From a virus, in the IMG/VR virus record IMGVR_UViG_3300035670_000197, positions 1-64,000 of that record: a stretch of DNA of 64,000 bases; one strand, given 5' to 3'. The position numbers and the translations under genes are program-made. Below the pieces are notes generated by a model. That model did no database searches and was not told where the DNA came from. It saw only the letters and a program-made list of their open reading frames with translations. Below, in pieces: positions 27,226 to 44,144 of the stretch. Position 1 is the stretch's first letter; the number at the start of each line of letters is the position of its first letter.

Positions 27226-27981
27226 TGTTCTATCGTACAGGACTTTTCTGATGGCGTTCAGAGCCTGAAGGGGCTAAGTCATTGTACGAAACGGTCGAAA
27301 TTATGAACGTTTACGATTTTTGACTTTGGCCTGTGAGTCGGCTGCGCTTTATACGGGAGCCTTTCCAAATCGTTCCGGGCTTTTCGAGGGGACATTTTTA
27401 CCTTTTCGTTTTCGCTGCTAGGGGTGGGGGGAGGGGGGGTCTTTTTGTTTCGAGGGGTCATCTTTTTTCTCTCTTCTCTCTGGGACATACGAGGCAGGGG
27501 GTGCATGTGTCTTACTTGTCATGTGTGAGGTCATGTCATGTCTTGTCAATGACTAGACAAGCAAGCAAGCAAGGCAGACATGTGTGCATGTTGTCTAGGT
27601 GGACTAGACAAGCAAGGCAGACATGTGTGCATGTGTGCAAGCAAGGCAGACATGTGTGCAAGCAAGGCAGGGGGGAGGGGGTAGGTGGGCTACAAGCAAG
27701 GCAGGGGGGAGGGGGGTCTCTCTTGTTGCAGGCTCTGGTTCTGAGGCTGGCTCTGACTCTGGCGACTACCTACCTAGAGGGGAGGGGGGTATGGGGGTCA
27801 TCATGTGGGCTAGTGCAGACAGCCAGGCGTCTAGGCCCTGGCAGGTGCAAACAACTTAGGCACTAGACATGCAAGCACGACATGCAAGGCAGGGGGGAGC
27901 AAACCCAATGCAGGCAAGGGCTAGAAAGAAATCTGCCCTAGAGGCTTGCAATAGTGCAGGAAGGTTGCTAACCTGCACCGC
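27226..27981. repeat. Gene-free divergent region with GCAAGGCAG repeats and G-runs
   Basis: About 750 bases lie between the leftward structural genes and the rightward small genes with no convincing gene. It holds at least six copies of GCAAGGCAG (starting 27569, 27612, 27641, 27662, 27696, 27884; a seventh at 28037 inside the next gene). Three are followed by ACATGTGTGC. Two are followed by long G-runs, so 27668-27716 has potential for a G-quadruplex. Such a region could be a replication origin or a regulatory switch; nothing decides between them. Confidence 0.6.
27946..27974 (+). promoter_or_regulatory. Promoter TTGCAA-N17-TAACCT with spacer motif
   Basis: The spacer contains GTGCAGGAAGGT. 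The next ATG is only 7 nt after the -10 box, so the transcript of the 27982 gene is probably leaderless. Confidence 0.7.
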
Positions 27982-28203
27982 ATGTTCCAAGTGACCAACC
28001 CCAAGACAGGCAAGACCTACAAATACAGCACCGCACGCAAGGCAGACGCATACGCTCTCGCAGAGAGGCTAGGCGTGGAGGTGCAGGTAGTGCAGGCGAC
28101 CTACCGCAAGACCTACGGCAAGACCTGCATCTGTGGGCGACCTGAGGACACGCACGAGTCCTACGACTGCTACAAGGACTACAAACTGCAAGGGGGGTGG
28201 TGA
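27982..28203 (+). CDS. Small basic protein of unknown function
   Basis: A 73-residue protein starting at the ATG just downstream of a promoter. Residues 1-45 are rich in Lys, Tyr, Ala and Thr. The C-terminal part has Cys-Ile-Cys-Gly-Arg with a later Cys and His residues, a possible small metal site. It is the first gene of a rightward cluster whose members have separate promoters. Start choice is uncertain because a leaderless start is implied. Confidence 0.6.
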   Translation: MFQVTNPKTGKTYKYSTARKADAYALAERLGVEVQVVQATYRKTYGKTCICGRPEDTHESYDCYKDYKLQGGW

Positions 28204-28223
28204 CAAGAGACACACCGCATGAC

Positions 28224-28252
28224 TTGACAGACTGCAGGAAGGTCTGTAGTCT
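28224..28252 (+). promoter_or_regulatory. Promoter TTGACA-N17-TAGTCT with spacer motif
   Basis: The spacer reads CTGCAGGAAGGTC in the same position as in its sister promoters. The flanking CAGAC and GTCTG form a small inverted repeat across the spacer. It drives the gene at 28313 through a leader of about 55 nt. Confidence 0.8.
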
Positions 28253-28312
28253 TACTCAGGTAAGGCGAAAGCCAAGCACAACAAACACAACGACGAAGGG
28301 ACACCGCAAGAC

Positions 28313-28555
28313 ATGAAGACTTACTCAGTAGCCATCACCGCAAAGGGAGTGACCTATCACTTCCATGTGGACACCATCAACAAGGTCAGGGAGTTGTTCG
28401 CTGGCTCATGTGACATCACCGTATTCGATGTGTGGTCACAGACTGACCGCATCAACGAGCGACCCATCATCGAGCGTCTGACTGAGGCTCAGGTCAATGA
28501 CATCATCTGGGGTCGCACCGCACAGGTGCAAATCCTGCAGGGCGCAGTCGCCTAA
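28313..28555 (+). CDS. Small protein of unknown function
   Basis: An 80-residue protein from ATG 28313, downstream of a conserved leader (AACGACGAAGGGAC). Sequence: beta-like N-terminus (Thr-Tyr-Ser-Val-Ala-Ile-Thr), a His-Phe-His-Val strand, then helix and strands. No family recognised. Its own promoter and terminator make it a single-gene unit. Confidence 0.7.
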   Translation: MKTYSVAITAKGVTYHFHVDTINKVRELFAGSCDITVFDVWSQTDRINERPIIERLTEAQVNDIIWGRTAQVQILQGAVA

Positions 28556-28574
28556 TCCGCACAGCACACAGTCT

Positions 28575-28626
28575 CCCCCTCTGGATGGTCACCCCCCGAC
28601 TATCTGGAGGGGGTTCTACTTTTTTC
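28575..28626 (+). terminator. Rho-independent-type terminator after the 28313 gene
   Basis: A C-rich arm (28575-28586) pairs with a G-rich arm (28602-28613) with two mismatches, followed by a run of six T at 28619-28625. Confidence 0.65.
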
Positions 28627-28647
28627 TGAGAAAGTTCACCGCAATAC

Positions 28648-28676
28648 TTGACAGAGTGCAGGAAGGTTGCTAATCT
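28648..28676 (+). promoter_or_regulatory. Promoter TTGACA-N17-TAATCT with spacer motif
   Basis: Near-consensus -35 and -10 boxes with the full GTGCAGGAAGGT word in the spacer; the best example of this promoter family. It drives the DUF3846-like gene at 28711. Confidence 0.85.
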
Positions 28677-28710
28677 TTCTACTGTCAGCAAACAACGACG
28701 AAAGGACATC

Positions 28711-29091
28711 ATGTCAAACAAGTACCTAGCAGTCACGACTGAGGGAGTCATCTCAGTCATCACCGCAACGAACGAGGACAGCCTCAGCAAGTTGCAGGAG
28801 GCAGTAGGGGGCTGGGTTCAGGTTATTGACCTCAGCGACACCCTCAGCCTCTGGTGCAACGAGGAGGGCAAACTCATCAACCTTCCGCACAATCCTTACG
28901 CTCAGGTCATCTGGGATGAGGTGTTCGGAGCACACACCGACTACATCGTGGGCGATGTTGTGTTCACAGGTGGCACAGACGACGAGGGCTACACGCTGGG
29001 CATCTCTGAGGAGCAGGAACAGCGAGTGCGTCAGGCAGTCGCAAAGGCTCAGCAGTTCGTGCTTCCACGAGTGGTCATCACGAGCAACTAA
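28711..29091 (+). CDS. DUF3846-like protein
   Basis: A 126-residue protein from ATG 28711, 6 nt after AAAGGA in the conserved leader; an in-frame upstream TTG would lie inside the promoter. The order of features fits DUF3846: an N-terminal strand, Gly-Gly-Trp-Val-Gln-Val-Ile, a central Asn-Glu-Glu-Gly-Lys-Leu-Ile-Asn-Leu-Pro-x-Asn, and Ile-Val-Gly-Asp-Val-Val-Phe-Thr-Gly-Gly. The family is widespread in phages and actinobacterial plasmids; function unknown. Confidence 0.75.
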   Translation: MSNKYLAVTTEGVISVITATNEDSLSKLQEAVGGWVQVIDLSDTLSLWCNEEGKLINLPHNPYAQVIWDEVFGAHTDYIVGDVVFTGGTDDEGYTLGISEEQEQRVRQAVAKAQQFVLPRVVITSN

Positions 29092-29100
29092 TCAAAGTGC

Positions 29101-29136
29101 AGAAGACCCCTCACCCAATGGGTGGGGGGTTCTTCT
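29101..29136 (+). terminator. Hairpin terminator after DUF3846-like gene
   Basis: Arms 29101-29116 and 29121-29136 (AGAAGACCCC against GGGGTTCTTCT, one bulge) around AATG. The stem is long and G:C rich; the T-tract is mixed (TTCTTCTGT). Confidence 0.6.
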
Positions 29137-29176
29137 GTAGATACGCACAGGTAAAAAATACGAAAGGACACAAGAA

Positions 29177-29476
29177 GTGGACATCACGAAGGTTCGACAA
29201 GAAGGGCTGGGAGACGGGTTCTCAGTTCTCAATCCGCACGATGGGTTCCGACAGGACAACAGGCTCTGGTTCGGGACATGCTCAAAGTGTGGGGAGATGG
29301 TCACCAACAGCACCCTGCATGGCTACTGGGAGCACACCATCTACACACGCAAGGAGTATTGGAGCCAGAAAGGCTACGAGTCAGGCATCTGCAACAGTTC
29401 GACATCTCACAATGTCGCCTACTGCCCAACCGCACGAGGCGAGACTCATCAGACCGAAGTTGTTCTGAAGTTCTAA
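29177..29476 (+). CDS. Small zinc-ribbon-like protein
   Basis: A 99-residue protein starting at GTG 29177 behind the conserved GAAAGGACA leader. Cys-Ser-Lys-Cys-Gly near residue 35, a His/Trp/Tyr-rich middle and two later Cys residues suggest a zinc ribbon. It follows a terminator, and no clear promoter is visible, so expression may come from read-through. Function unknown. Confidence 0.65.
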   Translation: MDITKVRQEGLGDGFSVLNPHDGFRQDNRLWFGTCSKCGEMVTNSTLHGYWEHTIYTRKEYWSQKGYESGICNSSTSHNVAYCPTARGETHQTEVVLKF

Positions 29477-29503
29477 AACTCTGACACACCCCTCTGCCAT
29501 ACT

Positions 29504-29532
29504 TGACAGAGTGCAGGAAGGTGTGAGATGAT
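29504..29532 (+). promoter_or_regulatory. Promoter TTGACA-N17-AGATGA with spacer motif
   Basis: Perfect -35 and full GTGCAGGAAGGT spacer word, but a poor -10 at the expected spacing. The conserved spacer with a degenerate -10 suggests the word is kept for its own sake. Confidence 0.65.
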
Positions 29533-29561
29533 TACATCAACAACGACGAAAGGAAGTCCCA

Positions 29562-29819
29562 ATGGGCTGGAACCTACCCCCCGGAGTAACAGGCAACGAG
29601 TACGAAATCGCCGGGCCAGACAGAGAGTGGAGCGACACACGAGAGGTGTCATGCTCTAACGACGAGTGCACCGCATACGAGCAGGAAATCGAAGTAGATG
29701 TGGACATACAGTCCTACCGAGGCGAGGCTTGGTTCTCATGGACATGCACCGCATGTGGTCACGAGGATGAAGTCACCTACGACCTAGACGACGAAAGAGA
29801 TTACGACCCTTACGACTAA
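29562..29819 (+). CDS. Small acidic zinc-ribbon-like protein
   Basis: An 85-residue protein from ATG 29562 with the conserved AACGACGAAAGGA leader. It has Cys-Ser-Asn-Asp-Glu-Cys and Cys-Thr-Ala-Cys-Gly-His pairs, as in zinc ribbons, and a C-terminus of alternating Asp/Tyr. No function known; such proteins are common in actinophages. A bidirectional-looking terminator follows. Confidence 0.7.
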   Translation: MGWNLPPGVTGNEYEIAGPDREWSDTREVSCSNDECTAYEQEIEVDVDIQSYRGEAWFSWTCTACGHEDEVTYDLDDERDYDPYD

Positions 29820-29836
29820 GGGCTACAAAGAAAGAA

Positions 29837-29871: not shown

Positions 29872-29881
29872 CGTTTCTAAG

Positions 29882-30145: not shown

Positions 30146-30229
30146 AAATCCCCTCCTAAAAACAATCAACGCCCGACAAATCCATCATAGAGGACTTGAC
30201 GAGCGTTGATTATAGAGATTAGGGCAGGT

Positions 30230-30722: not shown

Positions 30723-31427
30723 TCACTTTTCTGGGTACTGGGTTAGCCAATACGGTATGTCGCCAACCTTTCCTCCATTATACGCATTGGGTCCAACCCC
30801 CCATGCCCCGAAATCAGTACCTTTACTTGACATCTTGTAGGCAATACCCGCATTGACAAGCGGGTCGAACAAGTCTTCGTAACTGCTCAGGTTGTATCGC
30901 TCCATCCTGTCTTTACCGAGGTTCCCAATCATGTTGATTTGGAACAAACCGTAGGAGTTATCACCTGTATTGGAGTTCCCATTGTGAGCCACTGGTCTTC
31001 CTCTGGACTCACGCATAACAATCGCCCAAGCCATCCGCAAAGATTCTCCCTCAAAACCAACATGGGCAAGAAGGTCACGCAAAACTTTTGGTTCGAGGAC
31101 TTCTGCTTCGAGCGATGCAACAAGTTGTTGAGACTTCAGCGCAGCTGTTGGTTGTGTTGTCGAGGTGGTAGGGGCATTTTTTACCTTTTCCATCCTCAGC
31201 AGTTCCATCTCGTAGGTGTAGTGCTTCTTTTTCATGGAGTCTTCTAACTCCAAAGAGAAAACTTTCTCCTCCGCATACTTAGGTGTACTTGTCGTTGTTG
31301 TCGCTTCTTCCACTAGGTCACTTGCGTATGCGACTTTGACCACGAGGGTCACAAGGAGCAAGCCCATCACTCCTGCTACTAGTACTGCTCTATTTCTGGT
31401 TTTGTCCTTGGTTGGATACAAAAGCAT
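30723..31427 (-). CDS. Membrane-anchored lytic transglycosylase (SLT-like)
   Basis: A 234-residue protein. Residues about 12-35 are a transmembrane or uncleaved signal segment. A Thr/Ser/Pro-containing stalk follows to about 120. The C-terminal domain has Met-Arg-Glu-Ser-Arg-Gly, with the likely catalytic Glu, and Asn-Ser-Tyr-Gly-Leu-Phe-Gln-Ile, the classical SLT signature. It would cleave peptidoglycan glycan strands. The ATG at 31427 directly abuts AGGAG, so an in-frame TTG six bases later (31421) has better spacing and may be the true start. Confidence 0.75.
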   Translation of the reverse strand: MLLYPTKDKTRNRAVLVAGVMGLLLVTLVVKVAYASDLVEEATTTTSTPKYAEEKVFSLELEDSMKKKHYTYEMELLRMEKVKNAPTTSTTQPTAALKSQQLVASLEAEVLEPKVLRDLLAHVGFEGESLRMAWAIVMRESRGRPVAHNGNSNTGDNSYGLFQINMIGNLGKDRMERYNLSSYEDLFDPLVNAGIAYKMSSKGTDFGAWGVGPNAYNGGKVGDIPYWLTQYPEK

Positions 31428-31570
31428 CTCCTAACTGTTGGGGACACGACAACCGCACTCACGGGGGCGGTAGACATCGCTCAGTCGTATGTCTTTAGGT
31501 CTCTACAAGCATAGCACAATGCAGGAAAGTCCCCCCTGTTTTTTGCAGGGAGGACTATCCGCAAAGGTAC

Positions 31571-32167
31571 TTAGACCCCGAAAGCCTTTCGACAATCCGG
31601 GCCAAGTCGCAACTGACGAGACACCTCGTCTGTCAGTTCTGCTCCGCAACGACCACAGCATTGGTAGTGGTCAGCGAACAACTTTGTGTAGTTGTAGGGG
31701 TCACGCTTGATGATGCGTGCAAACACGAGTGCATCTGCCATCGGCATCATTGAGCGCATGAAAGAGCCGGGTGCTCCGTGTAACTGCTTGATGTATGTCT
31801 TGCCCTGATACTTGCGGATTTCGACAAACACCATGTCATTGTTGATTGGCTTCTCTAGCAAGTCCATCATCACTTCACCAGCAGGGATTGCGTACTTCGC
31901 AGTAGGCATCGCCTCAATCTCTTGCTTCAGTTCGAGGTACAACTTCTGCTTCTCGTTGAGGTTGTCCGCAGGTGCATCTGCCTTGATTTCCGCATTGGGG
32001 AGACCGAGGAAGATAGTGATGAACGAGGATGCAATCTTCTTCGTCATCGTTTCCTTGTTCACGAGGTACTGCATCTTGATTGCTTCAGGCACAGCCTTCT
32101 GCACGAGCAAGTCCTCAATGAACTTCAGTTGCTTTTCTGTTGCTTGGTCTGCTGTCATTATCGTCAT
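31571..32167 (-). CDS. Phage protein with C-terminal zinc motif
   Basis: A 198-residue protein from ATG 32167, 9 nt after AGGAGG. The N-terminus (Ala-Thr-Glu-Lys-Gln-Leu-Lys-Phe-Ile) is typical of a family in actinobacteria and phages. The C-terminus has Cys-Cys-Gly-Arg-Cys-Gly-Ala-Glu-Leu-Thr-Asp, then Leu-Gly-Pro-Asp-Cys, a treble-clef-like zinc site I associate with DUF6011-type proteins. Function unknown. It has its own spacer-motif promoter. Confidence 0.65.
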   Translation of the reverse strand: MTIMTADQATEKQLKFIEDLLVQKAVPEAIKMQYLVNKETMTKKIASSFITIFLGLPNAEIKADAPADNLNEKQKLYLELKQEIEAMPTAKYAIPAGEVMMDLLEKPINNDMVFVEIRKYQGKTYIKQLHGAPGSFMRSMMPMADALVFARIIKRDPYNYTKLFADHYQCCGRCGAELTDEVSRQLRLGPDCRKAFGV

Positions 32168-32191: not shown

Positions 32192-32220
32192 AATCTACCT
32201 GACTTTTGCAGGAAAGTCAA
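32192..32220 (-). promoter_or_regulatory. Promoter TTGACT-N17-TAGATT, spacer motif in reverse orientation
   Basis: Reading the minus strand, the spacer starts TTCCTGCA, the reverse complement of the TGCAGGAA core. GACTTT and AAAGTC flank it as an inverted repeat. Drives the gene at 32167. Confidence 0.75.
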
Positions 32221-32221: not shown

Positions 32222-32389
32222 TCACTTGTCTCTAGAGGCAAGGGTGGCACTTGTCACACCGCACAGACCAAAGGCGACGACCCAAGCCATCTCCCCCAGA
32301 CCAGCAGACACAAGAGCACCCAGACCGCAAGCAGTTGCGATGACAGATGTCCAGACTAAGTTCCGAACAAGTTCCCGAAGTTGCTTCAT
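32222..32389 (-). CDS. Small membrane protein
   Basis: A 55-residue protein with ATG 32389 overlapping the stop of the upstream HTH gene (ATGA) and AGGAGA six bases before it. Residues about 10-50 are hydrophobic (Val-Trp-Thr-Ser-Val-Ile-Ala-Thr-Ala, then Met-Ala-Trp-Val-Val-Ala-Phe-Gly-Leu), room for one or two membrane helices, with charged ends. Function unknown. Confidence 0.6.
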   Translation of the reverse strand: MKQLRELVRNLVWTSVIATACGLGALVSAGLGEMAWVVAFGLCGVTSATLASRDK

Positions 32390-32598
32390 CGAGTCTCCTC
32401 GATGGGCTGGCTCAGAGTCTTGTCGGGGCGAGTTCGACCTACCAAGCGTGCGCTTGGGTCACGGAACTCAACTCCTTGTGCCCAGATTGCCTTGCGTGCA
32501 GTTCGATAAGCCACCCCCAGTTGAGATGCGACTGCCTCTACTGACATGCCATTGGAGTACAACTCGGCAGCCTGCTCAGCGATGCGCTGATGCTTCAT
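32386..32598 (-). CDS. Small helix-turn-helix protein
   Basis: A 70-residue basic protein. Residues 5-45 read as a helix-turn-helix of the recombinase/psq type (Ala-Ala-Glu-Leu-Tyr-Ser-Asn-Gly-Met-Ser-Val-Glu-Ala-Val-Ala then Leu-Gly-Val-Ala-Tyr-Arg-Thr). AAAGGAAAAG lies upstream of ATG 32598. It is a candidate regulator, possibly of the promoter family in this region, but nothing links it directly. Confidence 0.65.
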   Translation of the reverse strand: MKHQRIAEQAAELYSNGMSVEAVASQLGVAYRTARKAIWAQGVEFRDPSARLVGRTRPDKTLSQPIEETR

Positions 32599-32617: not shown

Positions 32618-32803
32618 CTAGTTGGTTTCTTGGTTTCTCCGCATTTCAGCAGAAGATTTCAGTTCTCCAGAGCAGAACCTACAAACAACTTGATGTTCTG
32701 GCGTGGTTTGTCCAGACCAGAACCTTGTTCCGCACTCTCGAATAACGAGGCACATGAACTCTTGGTCATTGAGGTCTATCTCTTGGTTTTTTACCTCACT
32801 CAC
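32618..32803 (-). CDS. Small zinc-ribbon-like protein
   Basis: A 61-residue protein from GTG 32803 behind GAGGAG. It has Cys residues in Phe-Met-Cys-Leu-Val-Ile-Arg-Glu-Cys and Cys-Arg-Phe-Cys-Ser-Gly-Glu-Leu, which may form a zinc site. The first codons overlap a GGTAAAAAA word. Function unknown. Confidence 0.55.
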   Translation of the reverse strand: MSEVKNQEIDLNDQEFMCLVIRECGTRFWSGQTTPEHQVVCRFCSGELKSSAEMRRNQETN

Positions 32804-32805: not shown

Positions 32806-33306
32806 TTACTCCTCAACAGGTCTCTGAACCGCATGTTCTGCGATTTCATCTGCTGGTTGTCCCATGCTTGCGACCCAATCTTTGATGTGGTCGTCAGTTG
32901 GCATACCAACATGTCTACCTTCCTTCCATGTGAAAGGCGTTGTCTGACCTTTCGGTAACACAAACAGGTGGTACTGATTTGCTGTGTCAATGAGTTGGTC
33001 GTCTGGTGGGAAGATTTCGATTGCTTCTCTGTCCAGACCTGCAAGTTCGTTCTTGATGCGTTGGAGATGTCTCCAGTCACGCACCGCACGACGCTTGTGG
33101 TCTCGGATGCTCAGATGGATTGCTCCATCTTCTTTACCTTCCAACAGATGTCGGTGCACGACATAGTGAGAGTTCACCCAGAGAGTTTCGTTCTCAACGA
33201 GTGCGTCTTCTCGCACAACTCCATTTCGCATCGGCGTTGCCTCCGCAAAGCGAGTCCACTCTCTTGGTGGCGTTGCACCTCCTCGGTGCTTTCCCTTCTT
33301 AGCCAT
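32806..33306 (-). CDS. DUF7694-like phage protein
   Basis: A 166-residue protein. The frame opens earlier, but ATG 33306 (Met-Ala-Lys-Lys-Gly-Lys) overlaps the end of the upstream membrane protein gene and begins the conserved part. Words such as Ser-Ile-Arg-Asp-His-Lys-Arg-Arg, Arg-Asp-Trp-Arg-His-Leu-Gln-Arg-Ile-Lys-Asn-Glu-Leu and Leu-Ile-Asp-Thr-Ala-Asn-Gln-Tyr-His-Leu are typical of a phage family I recall as DUF7694. Function unknown. Confidence 0.65.
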   Translation of the reverse strand: MAKKGKHRGGATPPREWTRFAEATPMRNGVVREDALVENETLWVNSHYVVHRHLLEGKEDGAIHLSIRDHKRRAVRDWRHLQRIKNELAGLDREAIEIFPPDDQLIDTANQYHLFVLPKGQTTPFTWKEGRHVGMPTDDHIKDWVASMGQPADEIAEHAVQRPVEE

Positions 33307-33520
33307 TGGTGCTTCTTTCGATGTCCTTCTCAAGACACTCAAGCATGTCGCCCCAGCAATAACCATCTGAAGTCCACCACAGGTTTCCAATCACTTGGAA
33401 CATGATGAACAGAAACAGAGCAACAATCGCTGTGAAAAACCAGCGACGGCGTATTACATACTTGCGTTCCATGTTCCATTTAGAAGTGTCGAACAGTTCA
33501 CTTAGAACTAACTCAAACAT
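33299..33520 (-). CDS. Small membrane protein
   Basis: A 73-residue protein from ATG 33520, which follows the conserved AACGACGAAAGGAC leader. One strongly hydrophobic segment (Trp-Phe-Phe-Thr-Ala-Ile-Val-Ala-Leu-Phe-Leu-Phe) at about residues 27-48, basic before it, so the N-terminus is probably cytoplasmic. Its promoter (33565-33593) is the best palindromic case of the spacer-motif family. Function unknown. Confidence 0.6.
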   Translation of the reverse strand: MFELVLSELFDTSKWNMERKYVIRRRWFFTAIVALFLFIMFQVIGNLWWTSDGYCWGDMLECLEKDIERSTNG

Positions 33521-33554: not shown

Positions 33555-33592
33555 TGACAAGTACAGGATAGTAGACCTTCCTGCACTTGTCA
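33555..33592 (-). promoter_or_regulatory. Palindromic operator overlapping a promoter
   Basis: Arms TGACAAGTACAGGA (33555-33568) and TCCTGCACTTGTCA (33579-33592) form a 14-bp inverted repeat with one mismatch and a 10-nt centre. It spans the promoter TTGACA-N17-TATCCT (33565-33593), so a dimeric regulator bound here would cover -35, spacer and -10. Confidence 0.75.
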
Positions 33593-33596
33593 AGCA

Positions 33597-34220
33597 TTAG
33601 TTCTTCAGCGTGTTGCCACGCCAAGCATCTGGGTCTTGTGAAAGCAAGAACTTCTCAAACTGCCTGTTGCACAGAGCGTATGAACTCCTCTTCTTTCGGA
33701 TGAGGTCAATCGCATCTCGTGCAGACATCCCATCTCGGATGAGCACGAGGGCTGTAATGAGTCCAGACCTGTTCCAACCTGCTTGGCATCGGATGAGAAC
33801 CTTCTTGCCCTTCTTCCAGTCCGCATGTGCGCTCCGCACGATGTCAAACAGGTCTTCGGCATCGAAGTCACTCATCACGCTGTCCCAAACTCCATAACGA
33901 AGTTCTTTGACATGCCAATCCACAGGATTTGCATCCGCATACATCGTGACAACTGTGTCGAACTGCTTTGTTGTGATGAAAGGCTTTTCGAGTTGGTGCA
34001 TGACATCATTGTCATCCGTACCACCCTGCCACAGACCCTTCACGATTTCTGACCAAAGCGGTTGCGCTAGGTACGAGTCGTACTTGCTGTAATCAGGTCT
34101 TTCGAGTTCTTCGAGAGACATCTCTTCCTCCGCATCTTCTAATAGGTTTGCGATGTCGGAGTGTTCTGTCCAGTACTCCCACTCTTCGTTTGTCATTTCG
34201 TTTATTCTCTTGACTTCCAT
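33597..34220 (-). CDS. Dual-specificity protein phosphatase
   Basis: A 207-residue protein with the CX5R signature Cys-Gln-Ala-Gly-Trp-Asn-Arg-Ser-Gly (Cys145, Arg151), preceded by Val-Leu-Ile-Arg in place of the usual Val-His. An upstream Asp-Ser-Val-Met-Ser-Asp-Phe-Asp segment could supply the general acid. A helical N-terminus of about 60 residues precedes the domain. It would dephosphorylate phosphotyrosine or phosphoserine/threonine; the target is unknown. It has its own spacer-motif promoter. Confidence 0.8.
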   Translation of the reverse strand: MEVKRINEMTNEEWEYWTEHSDIANLLEDAEEEMSLEELERPDYSKYDSYLAQPLWSEIVKGLWQGGTDDNDVMHQLEKPFITTKQFDTVVTMYADANPVDWHVKELRYGVWDSVMSDFDAEDLFDIVRSAHADWKKGKKVLIRCQAGWNRSGLITALVLIRDGMSARDAIDLIRKKRSSYALCNRQFEKFLLSQDPDAWRGNTLKN

Positions 34221-34253: not shown

Positions 34254-34282
34254 AGTGTATCAGACCTACCTGCATTTTGCAA
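34254..34282 (-). promoter_or_regulatory. Promoter TTGCAA-N17-TACACT with spacer motif
   Basis: Spacer word ATGCAGGTAGGT, one of the more diverged copies. Drives the phosphatase gene at 34220 through the conserved AACGACGAAAGGAC leader. Confidence 0.75.
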
Positions 34283-34298: not shown

Positions 34299-34499
34299 TT
34301 ACTTGACCCAATACCTCCAACTGCTCCACCAGCGAGGGATTTCCTTACCCCTCCCCTTCACGAGGTAGACAAGGCTCCAAAACAAGTATCCGAGCAACTT
34401 GATGAACAGCCCATCGTTTGGGCTTACATAGTTGCGACGGCGACCCCCACGCAACCTCTTGTAGGTTCCGTAGACTGCGCTATCTGGTAATCCGTACAT
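34299..34499 (-). CDS. Small basic Trp-rich protein
   Basis: A 66-residue protein, basic at the start (Arg-Leu-Arg-Gly-Gly-Arg-Arg-Arg), with a hydrophobic stretch at about residues 31-48 and Trp-rich end. It could be membrane-associated. It has its own promoter, and the gene before it is far upstream, which supports that it is real. Function unknown. Confidence 0.5.
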   Translation of the reverse strand: MYGLPDSAVYGTYKRLRGGRRRNYVSPNDGLFIKLLGYLFWSLVYLVKGRGKEIPRWWSSWRYWVK

Positions 34500-34542: not shown

Positions 34543-34572
34543 ATAGTAGCAGAAAGTGCAGGAAGATGTCAA
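34543..34572 (-). promoter_or_regulatory. Promoter TTGACA-N18-TACTAT, spacer motif reversed
   Basis: The spacer carries TCTTCCTGCAC, the reverse complement of the shared word. Drives the gene at 34499. Confidence 0.75.
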
Positions 34573-34790: not shown

Positions 34791-35363
34791 CTAGGACTCT
34801 TCTTTCTTCTGAACAAGAAGATGCACAGGCTCTGCTGAGTTCGAGTCAAAACGGCACGCAATCGAGACCGCACTCTTCACCATGTTCCTCGCTGAGGTCA
34901 CGCTGCGTTTTTTACCTTCGAGGGTTGCTTGCAGCGCACCAAGCGCATAGCCAGCACCAGTTCCTGCTGCGTAGATGCCATCCGCATCTCGACACCAGTC
35001 GTAGTTCGAGCCAATGTCATAGATGACTCCATTGACAACGCAAATGATGTGCGAGTCGTGTTCTCCCTTTTCACCGTACTGAGCGTCATCAAAGCAGGAC
35101 TTCAGAGCAGGTATGAACTTCGAGGAGATAAACCTATCTAACCTGACGCCCTCATCCCGAGGGTTTGGTGGAGGTGGCTTCAGCACATGACCAAGCAAGT
35201 TGATTGCCCGCATATCCCCCGCTGCGCCAAGAAGGTAATCGCCATTTTTTACCACCTTGCCAGCATTAAATGGCAGCAAGTACACACGCTCATCATCAAC
35301 GACTCTTGAGTCGAAACCAACAACAGCCCAACCACTTCCCTGTACCGCAGCAATCGTGGTCAT
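34791..35363 (-). CDS. Proteasome/HslV-like Ntn hydrolase
   Basis: A 190-residue protein starting Met-Thr-Thr-Ile-Ala-Ala-Val. Removal of Met would leave an N-terminal Thr nucleophile as in HslV and proteasome beta subunits. Asp17 (in Gly-Phe-Asp-Ser-Arg) falls at the canonical Asp17 position, and a Lys at 35 is close to the canonical Lys33. Gly-Ala-Ala-Gly-Asp and a later Gly-Thr-Gly-Ala-Gly-Tyr-Ala-Leu-Gly-Ala support the fold. HslV is about 175 residues, so length fits. No unfoldase such as HslU is seen. A peptidase or another Ntn amidohydrolase are both possible. Confidence 0.7.
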   Translation of the reverse strand: MTTIAAVQGSGWAVVGFDSRVVDDERVYLLPFNAGKVVKNGDYLLGAAGDMRAINLLGHVLKPPPPNPRDEGVRLDRFISSKFIPALKSCFDDAQYGEKGEHDSHIICVVNGVIYDIGSNYDWCRDADGIYAAGTGAGYALGALQATLEGKKRSVTSARNMVKSAVSIACRFDSNSAEPVHLLVQKKEES

Positions 35364-36092: not shown

Positions 36093-36270
36093 TTTTACCT
36101 ACGACCTCCCACCTGTCTTCACCTTCGATAAGACCGAGCGATGAACCCGAGTCCCATTTGACATGCACCGTGCCCATGTCATCAACAAGAGTCACCGTGC
36201 CCTCCTCTCCGTACTTCAGTCGTGTGTACGGGTCGCTCGTTGATACGAGCCGAACTCTCTGTCCTTTCAT
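36082..36270 (-). CDS. DUF4314-like protein
   Basis: A 62-residue protein: Gly-Gln-Arg-Val-Arg-Leu, then Asp-Pro-Tyr-Thr-Arg-Leu-Lys-Tyr-Gly-Glu-Glu-Gly-Thr-Val, and Val-His-Val-Lys-Trp-Asp-Ser-Gly followed by Leu-Gly-Leu-Ile. This matches the DUF4314 pattern, a small SH3-like beta barrel found in phages and mobile elements. Function unknown. The ATG overlaps the upstream stop (ATGA-like). Confidence 0.8.
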   Translation of the reverse strand: MKGQRVRLVSTSDPYTRLKYGEEGTVTLVDDMGTVHVKWDSGSSLGLIEGEDRWEVVGKNVG

Positions 36271-36512
36271 CGGTCTTGCTCCTGAAGGTACATCGCAATC
36301 TCTTCCTGAGTTGCGCCTTGATGCTTCTGCAAGCGAACCCAGAGGTCGCCTGTCCGTGCGTACATGTCCATCAGCGCAAACAACTTGTCCATGCTGTAAT
36401 CCTTGTGGTTGCGGTGTCTCTCAATGTTCTCTTCGATGAACCGCATGAACATCGAAACAGAAAGCGTGAGTATCTCCGCATCTGCTTCGCTCGTGTGAAA
36501 TGGCTCTGTCAT
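36267..36512 (-). CDS. Small helical protein of unknown function
   Basis: An 81-residue protein from ATG 36512, 9 nt after AAGGA in the conserved leader. Helical throughout with a Met/Phe-rich core. First gene of a three-gene unit with the DUF4314-like and the 35871 genes. No family recognised. Confidence 0.6.
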   Translation of the reverse strand: MTEPFHTSEADAEILTLSVSMFMRFIEENIERHRNHKDYSMDKLFALMDMYARTGDLWVRLQKHQGATQEEIAMYLQEQDR

Positions 36513-36551: not shown

Positions 36552-36580
36552 ATCGTACTACTTCTCTGCACTTCAGTCAA
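36552..36580 (-). promoter_or_regulatory. Promoter TTGACT-N17-TACGAT with diverged spacer motif
   Basis: Spacer word GTGCAGAGAAGT, one inserted base relative to the consensus. Drives the gene at 36512. Confidence 0.7.
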
Positions 36581-37352: not shown

Positions 37353-37682
37353 TTACTTGACTACAAGAACCGTGAACTCGGTCTTGGTCTGGCAAGCCTC
37401 GAAAGCCTCGGGGAAAGCCTCGGCAAGTGCCTTGCTGTCAATGCCCTTGCGCTCACGCTTGGACACCTCAATACGGAGAGCCTCGTTCACGAGACCAACC
37501 TCGGCATCACCGAGAGCCTCCTTGATTTGAGCCTCAAGAGCCTTCTTGCTCTTTTCCAGCGTGTTGAGCATGTCACGAGTCGTAACGAACTCGTTGATGA
37601 CATTTGCAAGAGCAGTAAGGTCTACTGCCTTTCGCTCTGTCGCAACCTCAGTCACGACCTTACGGATTACCTTTGTTTCCAT
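37353..37682 (-). CDS. Helical protein of unknown function
   Basis: A 109-residue protein, largely helical with a coiled-coil-like Leu-Glu-Lys-Ser-Lys-Lys-Ala-Leu-Glu-Ala segment, then Val-Glu-Val-Ser-Lys-Arg-type strands. The layout (helical hairpin followed by a small beta part) occurs in several phage recombination-associated proteins, but that is only a hint. Own promoter upstream (37764-37792) and terminator downstream make it a single-gene unit. Confidence 0.6.
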   Translation of the reverse strand: METKVIRKVVTEVATERKAVDLTALANVINEFVTTRDMLNTLEKSKKALEAQIKEALGDAEVGLVNEALRIEVSKRERKGIDSKALAEAFPEAFEACQTKTEFTVLVVK

Positions 37683-37763: not shown

Positions 37764-37792
37764 AGATTACACCATCTCCCTGACATTTGCAA
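37764..37792 (-). promoter_or_regulatory. Promoter TTGCAA-N17-TAATCT without spacer motif
   Basis: Good -10 and 17-nt spacing, but the spacer lacks the TGCAGGAA core. Drives the gene at 37682. Confidence 0.65.
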
Positions 37793-38400: not shown

Positions 38401-38570
38401 TACCGTACCTTCTTTCGAGGGTTGTCCATTTGGATTGCTCTCCGCAACGCCTTCTCACGAGTCGGATGTAGTTCGACTGTGCAGTAGCGATTTGCCGTGT
38501 CAATGACCCACCAGCCCTTGCCTTCGTAGTCGGGCTTGATGTCGTAGCGTTGGTAGTAGCGATTACTCAT
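38400..38570 (-). CDS. Small basic protein of unknown function
   Basis: A 56-residue protein from ATG 38570, which overlaps the end of the upstream gene. It reads as one strand-turn-strand unit (Gly-Trp-Trp-Val-Ile-Asp, Tyr-Cys-Thr-Val-Glu-Leu) followed by a basic helix (Ala-Leu-Arg-Arg-Ala-Ile). No family recognised. Confidence 0.55.
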   Translation of the reverse strand: MSNRYYQRYDIKPDYEGKGWWVIDTANRYCTVELHPTREKALRRAIQMDNPRKKVR

Positions 38571-38796
38571 CGTGACCACCACCGAACATCTCTTCCCAAC
38601 ACTCGGGGTGTGTTCCTGAAACGATTTGCTCTCGCTCAGGTCTGCTCAACTCAGGGAACGCATCTTGGATGAGTGCGCCTTGATTGCGAGCGAACAAGCC
38701 CTCGTTAGGAACTTCGAGTTCGCCTTTGTATCCGCACCAAGAACATCTCGGTGTCTCAATGCGTGTCCACATTTTTGCTTTGGTTTCCTGTGACAT
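38563..38796 (-). CDS. Small zinc-binding-like protein
   Basis: A 77-residue protein from ATG 38796, 6 nt after AAAGGACA of the conserved leader. Cys-Ser-Trp-Cys-Gly-Tyr-Lys-Gly at residue 17 and a late His-Pro-Glu-Cys could chelate zinc, with a helix between. The Pro-Glu-Leu-Ser-Arg-Pro-Glu-Arg-Glu segment recurs in phage proteins. First gene of a coupled run of five. Function unknown. Confidence 0.65.
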   Translation of the reverse strand: MSQETKAKMWTRIETPRCSWCGYKGELEVPNEGLFARNQGALIQDAFPELSRPEREQIVSGTHPECWEEMFGGGHDE

Positions 38797-38824: not shown

Positions 38825-38853
38825 ATCGTAACACTTTCCTGCACGCAAGTCAA
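38825..38853 (-). promoter_or_regulatory. Promoter TTGACT-N17-TACGAT with spacer motif
   Basis: Spacer word GTGCAGGAAAGT. Drives the operon from 38796 to 37767. Confidence 0.8.
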
Positions 38854-38868: not shown

Positions 38869-39366
38869 TTAGAAATGAAAGTCCACGACGACGAGGTACT
38901 GCATCTCAGGTGCGATAGCAAGCCTCTCACGGAACGCCTTCAGATTTGGTGTGCCGTATTCGAGGTCGTACACACCTGACTCAGGAGTCCACGAGTCTTG
39001 GAGGTTCTTCGCCAACTTGTAGAGATAGTAAGTTTTCATCTCTTTGTAGTCGAGCGGTGCTTCGGGGTCGTATGCATCTAACTTCTCTGCGAGGTCGAAA
39101 TCTTTTACCTCTTCGAGGCAACGCTTCATTTCGTTGATGCGACCATCAACCCACTCTTTGATTTTCTCTTCAGCGAGTTTCTCGTTCTCGGTGTAACGCA
39201 AACAGTTCTTGCCACTACCAAACAGGTTTTCCCAACGCCCACCAATTTCGTGCCAATCAGACCACTCTGGGTAGGGAGTTTCTGAGTGCGTGACTTGACT
39301 CCTCACCTTGTCAATCGCCTCTTCGTGGCTCTCTGCTTCTACGAGCAAGATGTGTGCCGTATGCAT
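38869..39366 (-). CDS. Phage protein of unknown function
   Basis: A 165-residue protein from ATG 39366 behind a variant of the conserved leader (GACGAAAGGAC). It starts with a small alpha/beta segment (Ile-Leu-Leu-Val-Glu-Ala-Glu-Ser-His-Glu-Glu-Ala) followed by Trp-Ser-Asp-Trp-His-Glu-Ile-Gly-Gly-Arg-Trp, a word found in several phage and bacterial proteins of unknown role, then long acidic helices. Confidence 0.65.
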   Translation of the reverse strand: MHTAHILLVEAESHEEAIDKVRSQVTHSETPYPEWSDWHEIGGRWENLFGSGKNCLRYTENEKLAEEKIKEWVDGRINEMKRCLEEVKDFDLAEKLDAYDPEAPLDYKEMKTYYLYKLAKNLQDSWTPESGVYDLEYGTPNLKAFRERLAIAPEMQYLVVVDFHF

Positions 39367-39404: not shown

Positions 39405-39433
39405 ATCATACCTTCAGAGTGCAGGTAAGTCAA
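39405..39433 (-). promoter_or_regulatory. Promoter TTGACT-N17-TATGAT, spacer motif reversed
   Basis: The minus-strand spacer carries ACCTGCACT, reverse complement of AGTGCAGGT. Drives the gene at 39366. Confidence 0.75.
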
Positions 39434-39999: not shown

Positions 40000-41832
40000 T
40001 TATCTCCTGCCGACCGCCTCCATCGCACGAGCAGCAGCCTTGCCGATTTCGAGAGCAGCATCTTCGGGCTTCATGGTGTTCGCCACGATTTGCATCATGT
40101 CCTTCGCATTGGCTCCGTATCGCCTTGCCCACATACCGCTATCGAAAGGGAGCCACAGCACGCCAACGCCAGCCTGAGCGCAACGAGTGACCCACTCCTG
40201 AGCCTTGTTCGCTTCTGTTCCTGTGTATTGACCATCGCTCACTACCACGAGCAATCGTGCGCCCTTTCCGTGCAACAGATTGAGTCCACCATCAAGCGCA
40301 CGAAATGCCGTGTCGAACTTTTCAGTTCCATCATTTGCAGCCCAAACCGCAACATCTTCGAGATGTTGTCCGGGCTTCAGCGTTGCGAACACAGAGTTGC
40401 CGAAGTAGACCATCGCAGACCTACCCTGCACTCGGCGCACAGCCTCAGACATGACCCACGCAGTAGTTGCCATTGGCTTCATCGCTTCGCCCATTGAGCC
40501 TGAGATGTCCACCATGACACCCACAGTCAGAGTGGGTTCGTCAGTTTGCTTACGAACAGTCTTGCGCCATGCTTCGACCTGCTCAACAACTCCACGCTGA
40601 GCCATAGCCTTGCCCTGAACGATTGCACGAGTGCGAAGTCGTCCCGGAGGAGTGAGACTTGCAATCTCCATCTCGTCACGCTCACGATACTTTGCACGCT
40701 CCAACATCTTTGCGATGGTGACAGCAGCGACTCGCTCAGCCTGCTCAGGCTTGCGCCTTTCTACGAGATAACTCGAAGTGCGCCCACCCTCTTCGTGAGT
40801 CCCCTTCGAGAAAACCTTCTGACCAACTTCTTGATTTGCCTTCTGCTCTTTCGCAGAGTTCTGCTTCTGCTTGACCTGCTCTTCCCAATCCTCCTGTTGC
40901 TCTTGGTCAGCGAGGTCGCCAGCATTTGCAATCGCAACCATCTCAGAGGCTTCTTGTAGTGCCTCCATCATCTCCTTGATGAAACCAGCACTAGAGGATG
41001 AAGATGAACCTTCGCCAGCCTCGCCAGCCTCTCCACCTTCGCCAGCCTCTCCATCTTCCTGAGGAGTTGCATCGCCCTTCTCTTCAGCGACTTCACGAAC
41101 AATCTTCGCCCACTCAATCGCAAGGTCATAGAGCATTGGGTCTGCAACAGCGTGCATCTTGTGCGCTCGAAACTCGTCAGCGATTGCTCGCAACTTCTCA
41201 ACAACTTCGATGCCTATGTAGTCATTGACCAACTCAACCAACTCTTCGACATCTTCGTAGTCAAGGATGCCAGCGTCAATGCGAGAGTGAACAGTTGCGA
41301 CAAAGAACGATGCTGAGTAAGTGTTGGAACACTCAGCGAACTTTTCCTTAGCATCGTTGATTACGATGTCAATCGCACACGCACGCAAGAAAGGTCGTGC
41401 GCTAGGCATCTGAGCAAGTCCCTGCGCTTCGATGCGTGACTCTTCGAGCCACATCAGAGCCATGAACTCGTCTTTCTTCAGAGCCTTCTGAGCATCAGGG
41501 ATACTCCATTGTGAAAACTTTGCGTGAAAGGCTTCGTGCATGATTGCACCTGTCGCCTTTGGAAACTCGTATTGCTGAGTGCGTGAGGTGAGGTCTCCCA
41601 CCATCTCAGGTGTGACCATCTTGCCAAAAGCAATCTGAGTGTCTACCTCAATCTCAGCGAGGTCAGGGTTGTAGCAAGCAGGTGCGCCATGCCCTGCATT
41701 AGTGCCAACATACCCAACAAGGTCGTGACGCTCGCTCCACTTGTTTGCGAGTTCGCCAATCTGACGACCAACGCCTAGCCACTCCACAGGAGTCGCTTGC
41801 GCTCTCGTCTTGTCTGTCTTGATGTGTCCCAT
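40000..41832 (-). CDS. VWA-domain protein with HExxH motif (CobT/MoxR-partner type)
   Basis: A 610-residue protein. The start is ATG 41832 behind GGAAGGAAAG. Residues 90-110 hold Met-His-Glu-Ala-Phe-His, a zinc metallopeptidase motif (His99, Glu100, His103). About 255-340 are acidic, Gly/Ser-rich linker and helices. The C-terminal VWA domain has the MIDAS signature Asp-Ile-Ser-Gly-Ser-Met-Gly (Asp442) and a later Val-Val-Ser-Asp-Gly. Downstream partner of the MoxR ATPase gene, as in bacterial MoxR-VWA pairs, where the ATPase remodels or loads metal through the VWA protein. Substrate unknown. Confidence 0.8.
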   Translation of the reverse strand: MGHIKTDKTRAQATPVEWLGVGRQIGELANKWSERHDLVGYVGTNAGHGAPACYNPDLAEIEVDTQIAFGKMVTPEMVGDLTSRTQQYEFPKATGAIMHEAFHAKFSQWSIPDAQKALKKDEFMALMWLEESRIEAQGLAQMPSARPFLRACAIDIVINDAKEKFAECSNTYSASFFVATVHSRIDAGILDYEDVEELVELVNDYIGIEVVEKLRAIADEFRAHKMHAVADPMLYDLAIEWAKIVREVAEEKGDATPQEDGEAGEGGEAGEAGEGSSSSSSAGFIKEMMEALQEASEMVAIANAGDLADQEQQEDWEEQVKQKQNSAKEQKANQEVGQKVFSKGTHEEGGRTSSYLVERRKPEQAERVAAVTIAKMLERAKYRERDEMEIASLTPPGRLRTRAIVQGKAMAQRGVVEQVEAWRKTVRKQTDEPTLTVGVMVDISGSMGEAMKPMATTAWVMSEAVRRVQGRSAMVYFGNSVFATLKPGQHLEDVAVWAANDGTEKFDTAFRALDGGLNLLHGKGARLLVVVSDGQYTGTEANKAQEWVTRCAQAGVGVLWLPFDSGMWARRYGANAKDMMQIVANTMKPEDAALEIGKAAARAMEAVGRR

Positions 41833-41881
41833 TGTCTTTCCTTCCATTTGTCGTTTGCCCCTGTCCCTGAGGCTTAGTTCT

Positions 41882-41910
41882 ATGATAACTCATCTCTAGG
41901 TGATTTGCAA
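41882..41910 (-). promoter_or_regulatory. Promoter TTGCAA-N17-TATCAT without spacer motif
   Basis: Correct spacing and a good -10, but the spacer has no TGCAGGAA core. It would give the VWA gene transcription independent of the ATPase gene. Confidence 0.65.
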
Positions 41911-41922
41911 CTCTTAGGTGAG

Positions 41923-41979
41923 AGGTGGGGGAGGGGGGACACCTAGCGACCCCTCCCCACACCTTTTTCGATGCGAAAA
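41923..41979 (-). terminator. G/C-rich hairpin between ATPase and VWA genes
   Basis: A G-rich arm at about 41923-41938 pairs with CCCCTCCCCACACCT at about 41950-41964 with one mismatch. A T-run follows on the plus strand only, so its effect on the leftward transcript is uncertain. Confidence 0.45.
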
Positions 41980-41993
41980 CCTAAACAGGGAGA

Positions 41994-43031
41994 TTAGATT
42001 TTCGCAGGCTTGCACTCCTCCCCATAGACCCTCGTCAGCACATCAGCGACGATTGCCCTGTCCATTTCGGGGGAAGCAGCGAGCAAGTTTGAGATTGCGA
42101 ACTGAGTTCCAAAAGTTTCTGAGATGTCTCGGAACGCAAGCATCTCTCGCATCTGAGGAGCCCATGAGACTTCCCCTGCAACCTGCTTCTTGCTCAGGTT
42201 CTGAGCAGCAGTCACGAGAGGAGTCGGAACTCCCATCTTTCGTGCGAGGTTCCAATCTGTCGTCATTTCAGCCTGAACTGTGAAACGAGAGAGCAGAGCC
42301 TCAGAGAGACGAACTCCCGGAGCGTTTGGGTTAGTTGCAGCGACCACATAGAAGTTTGGGTGCGCCTTGATTGTGCCACGCTCAGGATTAGCGTTGATGG
42401 TGAGTTCACGACGACCATCCATGAGTCCATAAACGATGGACAACACTTTGGGGTCAATCAGACCAATCTCGTCAATGAAGTAGACACCACCACGCTCAGC
42501 AGCCTTCACGAGGTCTCCATCCACCCACTCGAAACCACCAGCAGGAGTTTGGACATAACCACCCACCATGTCAGCGACTTCAGTATCGCCTGTTCCCATG
42601 AGTGTGTAGACATCCTCGAAAGCAGCCTCCACGAGTGCAGTCTTGCCACACCCCGGTGCGCCATAGAGCAAGGTGAACATCGCAGAGCCACCAGCACCAG
42701 CGAAAGCCTTTGCAGTCGCTTCACGAGCCTTGCGAAGTGCAATCACATCTGAGTGAGTTCCCCACTTGCGTGAGTAGTAGTTCTCACCATTTGGTCGGAG
42801 GTAAGCCTCTTCACCTTCCATCGTTTCGACTTCGTGAGCCACAGCGATGCGAGGCTTGCGAGGCTTGCGCTCAGCACCTGTCGCACGAGCGACATAGCGA
42901 CCCTGAGGTGTCACCTTTGCGTTGAGTGTTACAGAGGCATCCTCGTTCACTCCCTGAGCGAGAGTGTTCACGAGCATGTCCCAAAAGTCGCCTCCAATCT
43001 TGGAAGCATAAGTTTCTCTAAATGTCGTCAT
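41994..43031 (-). CDS. MoxR-family AAA+ ATPase
   Basis: A 345-residue protein. An N-terminal region of about 105 residues precedes the AAA+ core with Walker A Gly-Ala-Pro-Gly-Cys-Gly-Lys-Thr (Lys130), Walker B Val-Tyr-Phe-Ile-Asp-Glu (Asp187, Glu188), a sensor-like Ala-Ala-Thr-Asn-Pro-Asn and an arginine in Ser-Glu-Ala-Leu-Leu-Ser-Arg-Phe. This is the MoxR pattern. It lies directly upstream of a VWA/HExxH protein. MoxR-VWA pairs act as chaperones or metal chelatases; in a phage the role is unknown. Confidence 0.85.
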   Translation of the reverse strand: MTTFRETYASKIGGDFWDMLVNTLAQGVNEDASVTLNAKVTPQGRYVARATGAERKPRKPRIAVAHEVETMEGEEAYLRPNGENYYSRKWGTHSDVIALRKAREATAKAFAGAGGSAMFTLLYGAPGCGKTALVEAAFEDVYTLMGTGDTEVADMVGGYVQTPAGGFEWVDGDLVKAAERGGVYFIDEIGLIDPKVLSIVYGLMDGRRELTINANPERGTIKAHPNFYVVAATNPNAPGVRLSEALLSRFTVQAEMTTDWNLARKMGVPTPLVTAAQNLSKKQVAGEVSWAPQMREMLAFRDISETFGTQFAISNLLAASPEMDRAIVADVLTRVYGEECKPAKI

Positions 43032-43064
43032 TTTGTATTTTCTCCCTGTGAGGTGTTTGTTTGA

Positions 43065-43523
43065 TTAGGCGATTTCTTTGGGGAAGCCTTCGGCATCCTT
43101 AGTGAGTCCAACTCGGTACAACAACTTGTTTGGTGTCTTTCCAAGTTTGATGTCTGTCATGTCCTTCTTCGATGTCTCAATCAACAGAGGCTTGTTGGTG
43201 AGTGTCCATCCACCATTGACAATCCCATCGAAGAGTTGCGTTGCGAAAGCGAGTCGCTTGTCTGCGAACTCATCCTTCTTGTCGTTCTCTAGGAACACTC
43301 CCAACTCCTTCTGCTCACGCAGAGCGTTCTGAGAGATGTTCGATGAACGCCATTGTTTCTTTGGTGTGTGAGGTGTAAGCACTCTGCGATACAGAGCAGC
43401 AGGAACTTCTTTGCCCTCTTCGTTGTATCCATCAGGAGTGAACATGAGTTGCATCATGGCTCCCGGCTTACGAAACTCGGCGTACAAGGTGATGCCCTGC
43501 ACATCCTTTGTCATGTCTAGCAT
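43065..43523 (-). CDS. First gene of MoxR-VWA operon, unknown function
   Basis: A 152-residue basic protein from ATG 43523, behind the conserved leader. It is mixed alpha/beta with Thr-Leu-Tyr-Ala-Glu-Phe-Arg-Lys-Pro-Gly at the start and no recognised domain. It shares a promoter with the MoxR ATPase 34 nt downstream, so it is probably a third component of that system. Confidence 0.6.
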   Translation of the reverse strand: MLDMTKDVQGITLYAEFRKPGAMMQLMFTPDGYNEEGKEVPAALYRRVLTPHTPKKQWRSSNISQNALREQKELGVFLENDKKDEFADKRLAFATQLFDGIVNGGWTLTNKPLLIETSKKDMTDIKLGKTPNKLLYRVGLTKDAEGFPKEIA

Positions 43524-43563
43524 TTGGTGTCCTTTCGTCGTTGTTGTTTGCTAGGTGATGTTT

Positions 43564-43592
43564 ATTGTAGAGGGGACTTGCAGGAAAGTCAA
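43564..43592 (-). promoter_or_regulatory. Promoter TTGACT-N17-TACAAT, spacer motif reversed
   Basis: The spacer begins TTCCTGCA on the minus strand, flanked by GACTT and AAGTC. Drives the operon that includes the MoxR ATPase gene. Confidence 0.8.
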
Positions 43593-43614
43593 GCCCCCTC
43601 CACAACTTTTTTTC

Positions 43615-44067
43615 TTAGACCCTGCTCGCTCTTATGTCTGCGAGTTTGCGCTCCCACTCTTCAGCCTTTTGCTGACGAAACTCTAAGGTGCAGTTCGCCA
43701 CGCTGAGGATGGGGTCAGAGATGAACTCATCGAAAGAGATGCGAGCAACTTCGATGTCTGAGTTTGCATTGTCTGCAACGATGACCTCACGAGACTCCCA
43801 CTCCACGATGAGGATGTGGTCGTAGTCTGCGCCATGTGAGGTTCCACCTACATAAACGCCATACGAGAGTTCTTGGTTCCAATCTTCGCCAATCATCTGC
43901 GAGAGGCAAATGCGAGTTGCGTAGGAGTAATCACTCCAACGAACCTGCGCTCGTGATAGTGCGTCTGCGAGAACTTGCTCTTGCGCTCCACGCACCCAAT
44001 GTTGATAGAGGAAGATGGTGGGGTCTCCACTCTTCTCTCTAAATCCTGCTACTGCCCTGTCACCCAT
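43615..44067 (-). CDS. Protein of unknown function
   Basis: A 150-residue protein from ATG 44067 with the conserved AACGACGAAAGGAC leader. Helical start, then Gly-Thr-Ser-His-Gly-Ala-Asp-Tyr-Asp-His-Ile-Leu-Ile-Val-Glu-Trp and Val-Ile-Val-Ala-Asp-Asn-Ala strands. Could be a small enzyme-like fold, but no family recognised. Own spacer-motif promoter. Confidence 0.6.
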   Translation of the reverse strand: MGDRAVAGFREKSGDPTIFLYQHWVRGAQEQVLADALSRAQVRWSDYSYATRICLSQMIGEDWNQELSYGVYVGGTSHGADYDHILIVEWESREVIVADNANSDIEVARISFDEFISDPILSVANCTLEFRQQKAEEWERKLADIRASRV

Positions 44068-44115
44068 GTGGATGTCCTTTCGTCGTTTTGACCTGCTCTA
44101 TTGAGCATTGAGTTC

Positions 44116-44144
44116 ATCGTAGCACCTTCCTGTACTAGATGCAA
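44116..44144 (-). promoter_or_regulatory. Promoter TTGCAT-N17-TACGAT with spacer motif
   Basis: Spacer word GTACAGGAAGGT. Drives the gene at 44067. The tRNA gene lies immediately upstream of it. Confidence 0.75.

Follow-up and report, generated by a model that had tools for sequence, protein, structure and literature searches.

The window analysed here is a 64,000-nucleotide stretch (positions 1 to 64,000) of the virus record IMGVR_UViG_3300035670_000197, nearly the whole of this 64,317-base IMG/VR entry. Many of its predicted promoters carry a conserved asymmetric word, TGCAGGAAGGT or a close variant, inside the spacer between the -35 and -10 boxes. The reading that we favour, with a modest degree of confidence, is that this word is an operator for the phage-encoded protein P0001, a small autoregulated repressor that would repress many early promoters by occlusion. 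From its sequence, the system looks like an undescribed genome-wide phage switch.

By sequence comparison, the phage is placed in a large group of uncultivated freshwater (lake-water) actinophages with a distant relation to Microbacterium phages such as Pumpernickel: its portal protein shares 73% identity with that of Actinomycetia phage DSL-LC01 and ~60% with the portals of the Microbacterium phages Pumpernickel, Cece, Big4, Zooman and A3Wally. The contigs compared below are fragments, and promoters were predicted by consensus in the window and relatives alike. One record, G008 (IMGVR_UViG_3300047564_003843, 160704 bases), contains two portal genes and is possibly a joined assembly of two phages.

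Confinement of the word to promoter spacers

Within the window, TGCAGGAAGGT occurs in 6 exact copies versus 0.07 expected from dinucleotide-model shuffles, and in 18 copies with at most one mismatch versus 1.4 expected. Word counts in most relatives were far above those of controls, and a strict promoter pattern was found in 73 viral contig stretches. Promoters were also chosen without regard to the word in 24 word-bearing records (window included), using the -35 box, the -10 box and the ribosome-binding site only, and the word was then scored as a 9-mer with at most 2 mismatches on either strand. The spacer held the word in 46 of the 86 non-redundant promoters chosen in this way, while each of seven equal-sized flanking windows of the same promoters held it in 1–6 of 86. 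The motif count suggested by the original prediction, made here in the window and relatives, thus showed that spacers hold the word far more often than the sequence elsewhere.

The word is no general trait of host-like promoters, because in eight distant relatives it was present in the spacer of only 1 of 66 similar promoters. Relatives with similar promoters and other spacers, which had been named as a possible refutation, do exist, yet as separate lineages. The strict word-promoter pattern was not found in DSL-LC01, a complete sister genome. A scan of 84,980 prokaryote genomes returned 10 scattered matches, no excess over the ~7–8 expected by chance according to our own estimate from the collection size. 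A role of the word at the RNA level, in its own transcript, was rejected on account of its position upstream of the -10 box.

The extended word in the window's clade is AAAGTGCAGGAAGGT, with the core CAGGAAGGT, and is asymmetric; a second form, TGTCAGGWAGGT, has the core CAGGWAGGT in common with the main form. Forward sites prevail and reversed sites are present, the AAAG extension of the AAAGTGCAGGAAGGT form being retained at the reversed ones too (non-redundant sites). The orthologous promoters of gene 34299 have the word in either direction, reversed in the case of seven phages (window included) and forward in that of two (G040 and G042), and genes 43065 and 45906 display comparable orientation differences between phages. 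In one clade 2 nt mostly separate the word from the -10 box, and in another clade 4 nt. Two orientations and a shifting register are not what a polymerase-read element should allow, but an operator can accommodate both; in sequence terms, a phage-specific operator is a better match for the word than an element of RNA polymerase.

An inverted partner (at least 8 of 11 matches) lies at a spacing of 3 bp at 11 of 201 non-redundant sites, with hardly any partners at other spacings. A fully palindromic operator was rejected as the rule given this low count; single sites are the rule, and the inverted partners suggest that a second protein copy can probably bind head to head. In L101, L103 and L123 (e.g., L103 near 5380), word-like arms make a terminator-type hairpin followed by TTTTTT.

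P0001 as the candidate binder and the drift of the word

The original prediction reasoned that a protein probably binds the conserved spacer, and comparison supports this well: confinement to spacers, occurrence in either orientation, restriction to phages and drift together with one helix-turn-helix (HTH) protein all point to a bound protein. It had named the HTH proteins at 32386 and 26725 as candidates by location. The former was strengthened by covariation and by a gene placement of the autoregulation type, and P0001, encoded at 32386–32598 on the minus strand, is our best candidate for the binder. The latter was rejected, since its gene lies in the packaging (terminase-portal) cluster, as gp76 does in Microbacterium phage Pumpernickel, and none of its columns is both constant across word-rich phages and altered elsewhere.

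P0001 is a 70-residue protein with a single HTH (HTH_23/Cbp1-like), in which alanine 30 (A30) starts the recognition helix, and it is the only HTH protein among the early genes common to all 24 word-bearing records. Its predicted model contains three helices at moderate confidence (a mean predicted local distance difference test score, pLDDT, of 75). Against the first HTH of Cbp1 (NCBIfam NF040595) it scored E = 4.7e-7, with 29.8 bits versus a cut-off of 140; no match was obtained to the C1 families in Pfam, PHROGs and NCBIfam, and a tblastn search with P0001 found no cluster A phage record. For nearly every distinct A30 variant of the P0001 gene, a same-strand word promoter lies no more than 2.5 kb upstream, and in five phages a word promoter stands directly 5' of the gene.

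Phage groups were set by word count alone, and 1,259 variable columns in 13 proteins were compared between them. Only residue 30 of P0001 was invariant among the word-rich phages and different in every other phage; the few remaining columns that separated the groups were hypervariable. All word-rich phages have Ala at this position, and the word-poor ones have Ser, Cys or Asp. The dominant word differs by P0001 type, being TGCAGGAAGGT in A30, TGCAGGGAAGT in S30, TGTCAGGAAGGT in C30 and TACAGGAAGGT in D30 phages. All 14 of the 14 counted TGCAGGGAAGT copies in S30 phages fall within promoter spacers (the contigs being partly redundant), and in D30 phages TACAGGAAGGT precedes their own P0001 gene. 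A strict split into word-plus and word-minus phages therefore proved too strict, since S30, C30 and D30 phages bear altered words and are mostly not wordless. Respelling of unrelated promoters of one phage together is the outcome expected if a shared DNA-binding protein had changed.

On the portal tree, three separate state changes were found, with residue 30 following each; this covariation between sequences is suggestive, not significant. We tentatively propose, at slightly below even confidence, that a protein of 70 residues with a single HTH recognises an asymmetric word, in either orientation, in the promoter spacers of a whole early regulon, in phages without detectable lysogeny genes, and that the genome-wide spelling of the word follows the recognition helix, chiefly its first residue, making these phages a natural series of co-evolved specificities.

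Proposed repression, its alternatives and known systems

According to the repressor model, in which the operator occupies the spacers of ~15 early promoters, host RNA polymerase would fire these strong promoters upon DNA entry, and P0001, whose operon is likewise driven by a word promoter, would be produced and then accumulate. It would bind the spacers in either orientation and block RNA polymerase, so that the early genes and P0001 itself would be turned down in a negative feedback. Repression is the leading idea because RNA polymerase should be kept out of a strong promoter whose spacer is occupied by a protein, and because the position of the P0001 gene suggests negative feedback; binding is probably monomeric, as most sites are single. 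That P0001 is the protein bound, how it binds, that it represses and when it acts are all inferred.

Several observations weigh against this model. No more than three independent changes make up the covariation (sign test p = 0.25), the early region may have had a history other than that of the portal tree, the C30 and D30 forms are based on one to three promoters each, and the TGTCAGG form and certain S forms also occur in A30 phages. SYRCAR phages possess P0001 and have no recognisable conserved spacer word. Within the window, three other genes stand between P0001 and its word promoter (33593). The clade of G022, G027, G036, G040 and G042 often has a weak -35 box (TTGCAA or less) with the word and the -10 box kept, which an activator could explain. 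Finally, a tyrosine integrase, a ParA-type ATPase and a ParB domain were not found in 10–11 long relatives (the window genome being incomplete), and a lysogeny repressor is thus not indicated. A P1-like plasmid prophage was rejected because no ParA or ParB was found in these relatives. Small serine recombinases are present, one each, in 10 of the 11 long relatives, and DSL-LC01 is listed as lysogenic by its authors on the basis of a classifier (PMC10611076).

An activator or co-activator site, at which a phage protein in the spacer beside an extended -10 box aids RNA polymerase and can make up for a weak -35 box, is an unlikely explanation that draws on the same weak-box clade: there 19 of 20 sites keep a fixed 4-nt gap between the word and the -10 box, and the -35 box is mostly TTGCAA or worse. 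The sister phage DSL-LC01 also has ~30 extended -10 promoters that lack a clear -35 box and share a different conserved word upstream. However, most word promoters elsewhere combine TTGACA or TTGACT with a good -10 box and need no activator, the word is reversible at orthologous promoters, and extended -10 promoters function without a -35 box. It is similarly improbable that the operator is real and bound by another phage protein, for example a WhiB-like protein or one that binds DNA, went unrecognised and is encoded beyond the window. The sequence analysed spans just 64 kb, many small early proteins belong to no known family, and related longer genomes encode two to three WhiB-like proteins; these occur equally in word-poor G047 and DSL-LC01, whereas the spelling of the word tracks the recognition helix of P0001, whose gene lies downstream of word promoters.

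We consider it very unlikely that host RNA polymerase or another factor of the host reads the word as part of the promoter, with no phage protein involved. The near-fixed position of the word in otherwise host-like promoters would suit such an element, but the word occurs in both orientations and in a shifting register, sister phages have similar promoters without it, and the bacterial genome scan stayed at chance level, on which ground the host element was rejected, though the true host may be absent from the 84,980 genomes. The least credible explanation, to which we give almost no weight, is that the promoters are recent duplicates with spacers common by descent. Three plus-strand promoters at 28.2–29.5 kb do have longer stretches in common, but the word is kept while flanks differ, reversed words have unrelated flanks, the word is found at non-homologous promoters, and it is respelled in concert across several promoters of S30 phages.

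The repressor model also has to be set beside known systems. Many operators of phage P1 overlap with the -35 region, and that of c1 is bivalent, which resembles the inverted ACCTTCYTGCA-NNN-TGCAGGAAGGT pairs of the word phages. The P1 C1 repressor acts at 22 dispersed asymmetric operators and represses its own promoters (PMC8546580), and many asymmetric operators spread over the phage genome at promoters are likewise found here. In contrast, the 17-bp P1 operator ATTGCTCTAATAAATTT is unlike the word, P1 is temperate, and the word sites are confined to spacers, with a candidate protein that is a 70-residue HTH protein and matches no C1 family.

The operators or stoperators of cluster A mycobacteriophages are 13 bp long, lie mostly outside promoters and are predominantly in one orientation (PMC6550527, PMC9283540). 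They are similar to the word in being short asymmetric sites dispersed in an actinophage genome, read by a monomer (for the word, a probable one), with a motif that drifts with the repressor between subclusters. The difference claimed in the original prediction nevertheless holds, as the word is a spacer site in both orientations. The cluster A repressor is a ~23 kDa protein (about 180 residues) with an N-terminal HTH and a second DNA-binding domain (PMC9283540, PMC6550527), whereas P0001 has 70 residues and one HTH, and the integrase or parABS genes of temperate cluster A phages were not found in the 10–11 long relatives, the window genome being incomplete. The word system works like P1 C1 or cluster A operators and is a member of neither, since site position, orientation, protein and lifestyle markers differ.

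MerR-type spacer activators bind a palindromic site in an over-long spacer of 19–20 nt; the spacers here measure 16–18 nt, and the word is asymmetric, with an inverted partner at few sites as given above. P0001 resembles the folds of the CRISPR repeat-binding protein Cbp1 and of DeoR/IstA-type HTH proteins, but it falls far under the Cbp1 cut-off, has a single HTH and occurs in a phage promoter context. The start-associated sequence (SAS) and extended SAS (ESAS) of cluster K phages are repeated asymmetric phage-specific sequences upstream of many non-structural genes, 3–7 bp before start codons (PMC3203893). The word instead lies upstream of the -10 box, and the window element AACGACGAAAGGACA is closer to SAS than the word is. 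A start-associated element, AACGACGAAAGG, precedes small genes in 15 copies in the window (28289–51374) and 22 in DSL-LC01 (L247–L249); none was found in the first 50 kb of Pumpernickel. A literature search of open-licence papers found no spacer operators of this sort.

Promoters, neighbouring elements and significance

All 13 promoters listed in the original prediction are present with the -35 and -10 boxes claimed, including the four with a reversed word (32192, 34543, 39405 and 43564). Their positions stood overall, except that the fourth plus-strand -35 box starts at 29503 and not 29504, and two promoters (29503 and 34572) rather than one need an 18-nt spacer in place of 17 nt. The list omitted the word at 31520–31530, the promoters at 37764–37792 and 47821–47849, and the words at 54322 and 54351. 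In total, the window contains ~16 word promoters, nearly all preceding small genes; several TTGACA promoters without the word are also present (45552, 46269).

The four plus-strand promoters all carry a forward word. TTGCAA-17-TAACCT (27946–27974, word 27955–27965) stands 5' of a 73-residue open reading frame at 27982–28203; TTGACA-17-TAGTCT (28224–28252, word 28233–28243) precedes gene 28313–28555, which has a word promoter in 14 relatives; TTGACA-17-TAATCT (28648–28676, word 28657–28667) precedes gene 28711–29091 (DUF3846); and TTGACA-18-GATGAT (29503–29532, word 29512–29522) precedes gene 29562–29819.

On the minus strand, an extended -10 box TGCTATGCT adjoins a reversed word (31490–31530, the word at 31520–31530 on the plus strand) before the lysis-type gene 30723–31421, and orthologous promoters in six relatives also have a reversed word. 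TTGACT-17-TAGATT (32192–32220, reversed word 32207–32217) serves gene 31571–32167 (DUF6011). TTGACA-17-TATCCT (33565–33593, forward word 33575–33585) heads the gene run 33299–33520, 32806–33231, 32618–32803, 32386–32598 (P0001) and 32222–32389. TTGCAA-17-TACACT (34254–34282) holds the variant forward word TGCAGGTAGGT (34264–34274) before gene 33597–34220, a dual-specificity phosphatase, and TTGACA-18-TACTAT (34543–34572) a reversed word (34557–34567) before gene 34299–34499. An HslV/proteasome-like peptidase gene lies within the early region at 34791–35363.

Further along the minus strand, TTGACT-17-TACGAT (36552–36580) carries the variant word TGCAGAGAAGT with 2 mismatches (36560–36570) before gene 36267–36512, and TTGCAA-17-TAATCT (37764–37792) the second word form as TGTCAGGGAGAT before gene 37353–37682, where 7 relatives also have word promoters. 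TTGACT-17-TACGAT (38825–38853) with the forward word TGCAGGAAAGT (38833–38843) precedes gene 38563–38796; TTGACT-17-TATGAT (39405–39433) with a reversed variant word (39420–39430) precedes gene 38869–39366; and TTGACT-17-TACAAT (43564–43592) with a reversed word (43579–43589) precedes gene 43065–43523. The variant words TACAGGAAGGT (44124–44134) and TGCATGAAAGT (47829–47839) occupy TTGCAT-17-TACGAT (44116–44144, gene 43615–44067) and TTGCAA-17-TATGAT (47821–47849, gene 47576–47785), respectively.

Two words, TGCAGGAAGGT and TGCAGGAAGCT, lie on the plus strand at 54322–54361 in AT-rich non-coding DNA with TTAGG/CCTAA inverted repeats. The surrounding AT-rich, non-coding region (54020–54420), with repeated CCCTAACAG/CTGTTAGG inverted repeats, separates divergent gene arms and is possibly an origin or control region. 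In the relatives L159, L161, L169 and L181, words likewise stand between GATAGTA/TACTATC-type arms. At 14673–22469, the window encodes a 2,598-residue protein with a DNA-polymerase-exonuclease-like domain, which adjoins the portal gene and is kept in relatives. DSL-LC01 (L247, OQ999401.1) carries ~30 extended -10 promoters of almost the same sequence, GATTCTAAAGATGTTATAATAGAATC, at 22608–43304, which have GATTC/GAATC arms; given this different uniform promoter family, conserved words beside the -10 box may be a habit of the wider phage group.

How phages of freshwater actinobacteria regulate their genes is little known, and the literature searched contained no study of promoters in this group. 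If the proposed system is real, it would provide a defined early regulon with a very small regulator, as well as a ready series of matching operators and proteins (A30, S30, C30 and D30) in which helix and site change together. It would also suggest that a genome-wide early switch is maintained even where no lysogeny genes are detectable, perhaps to time expression or to keep out superinfecting relatives.

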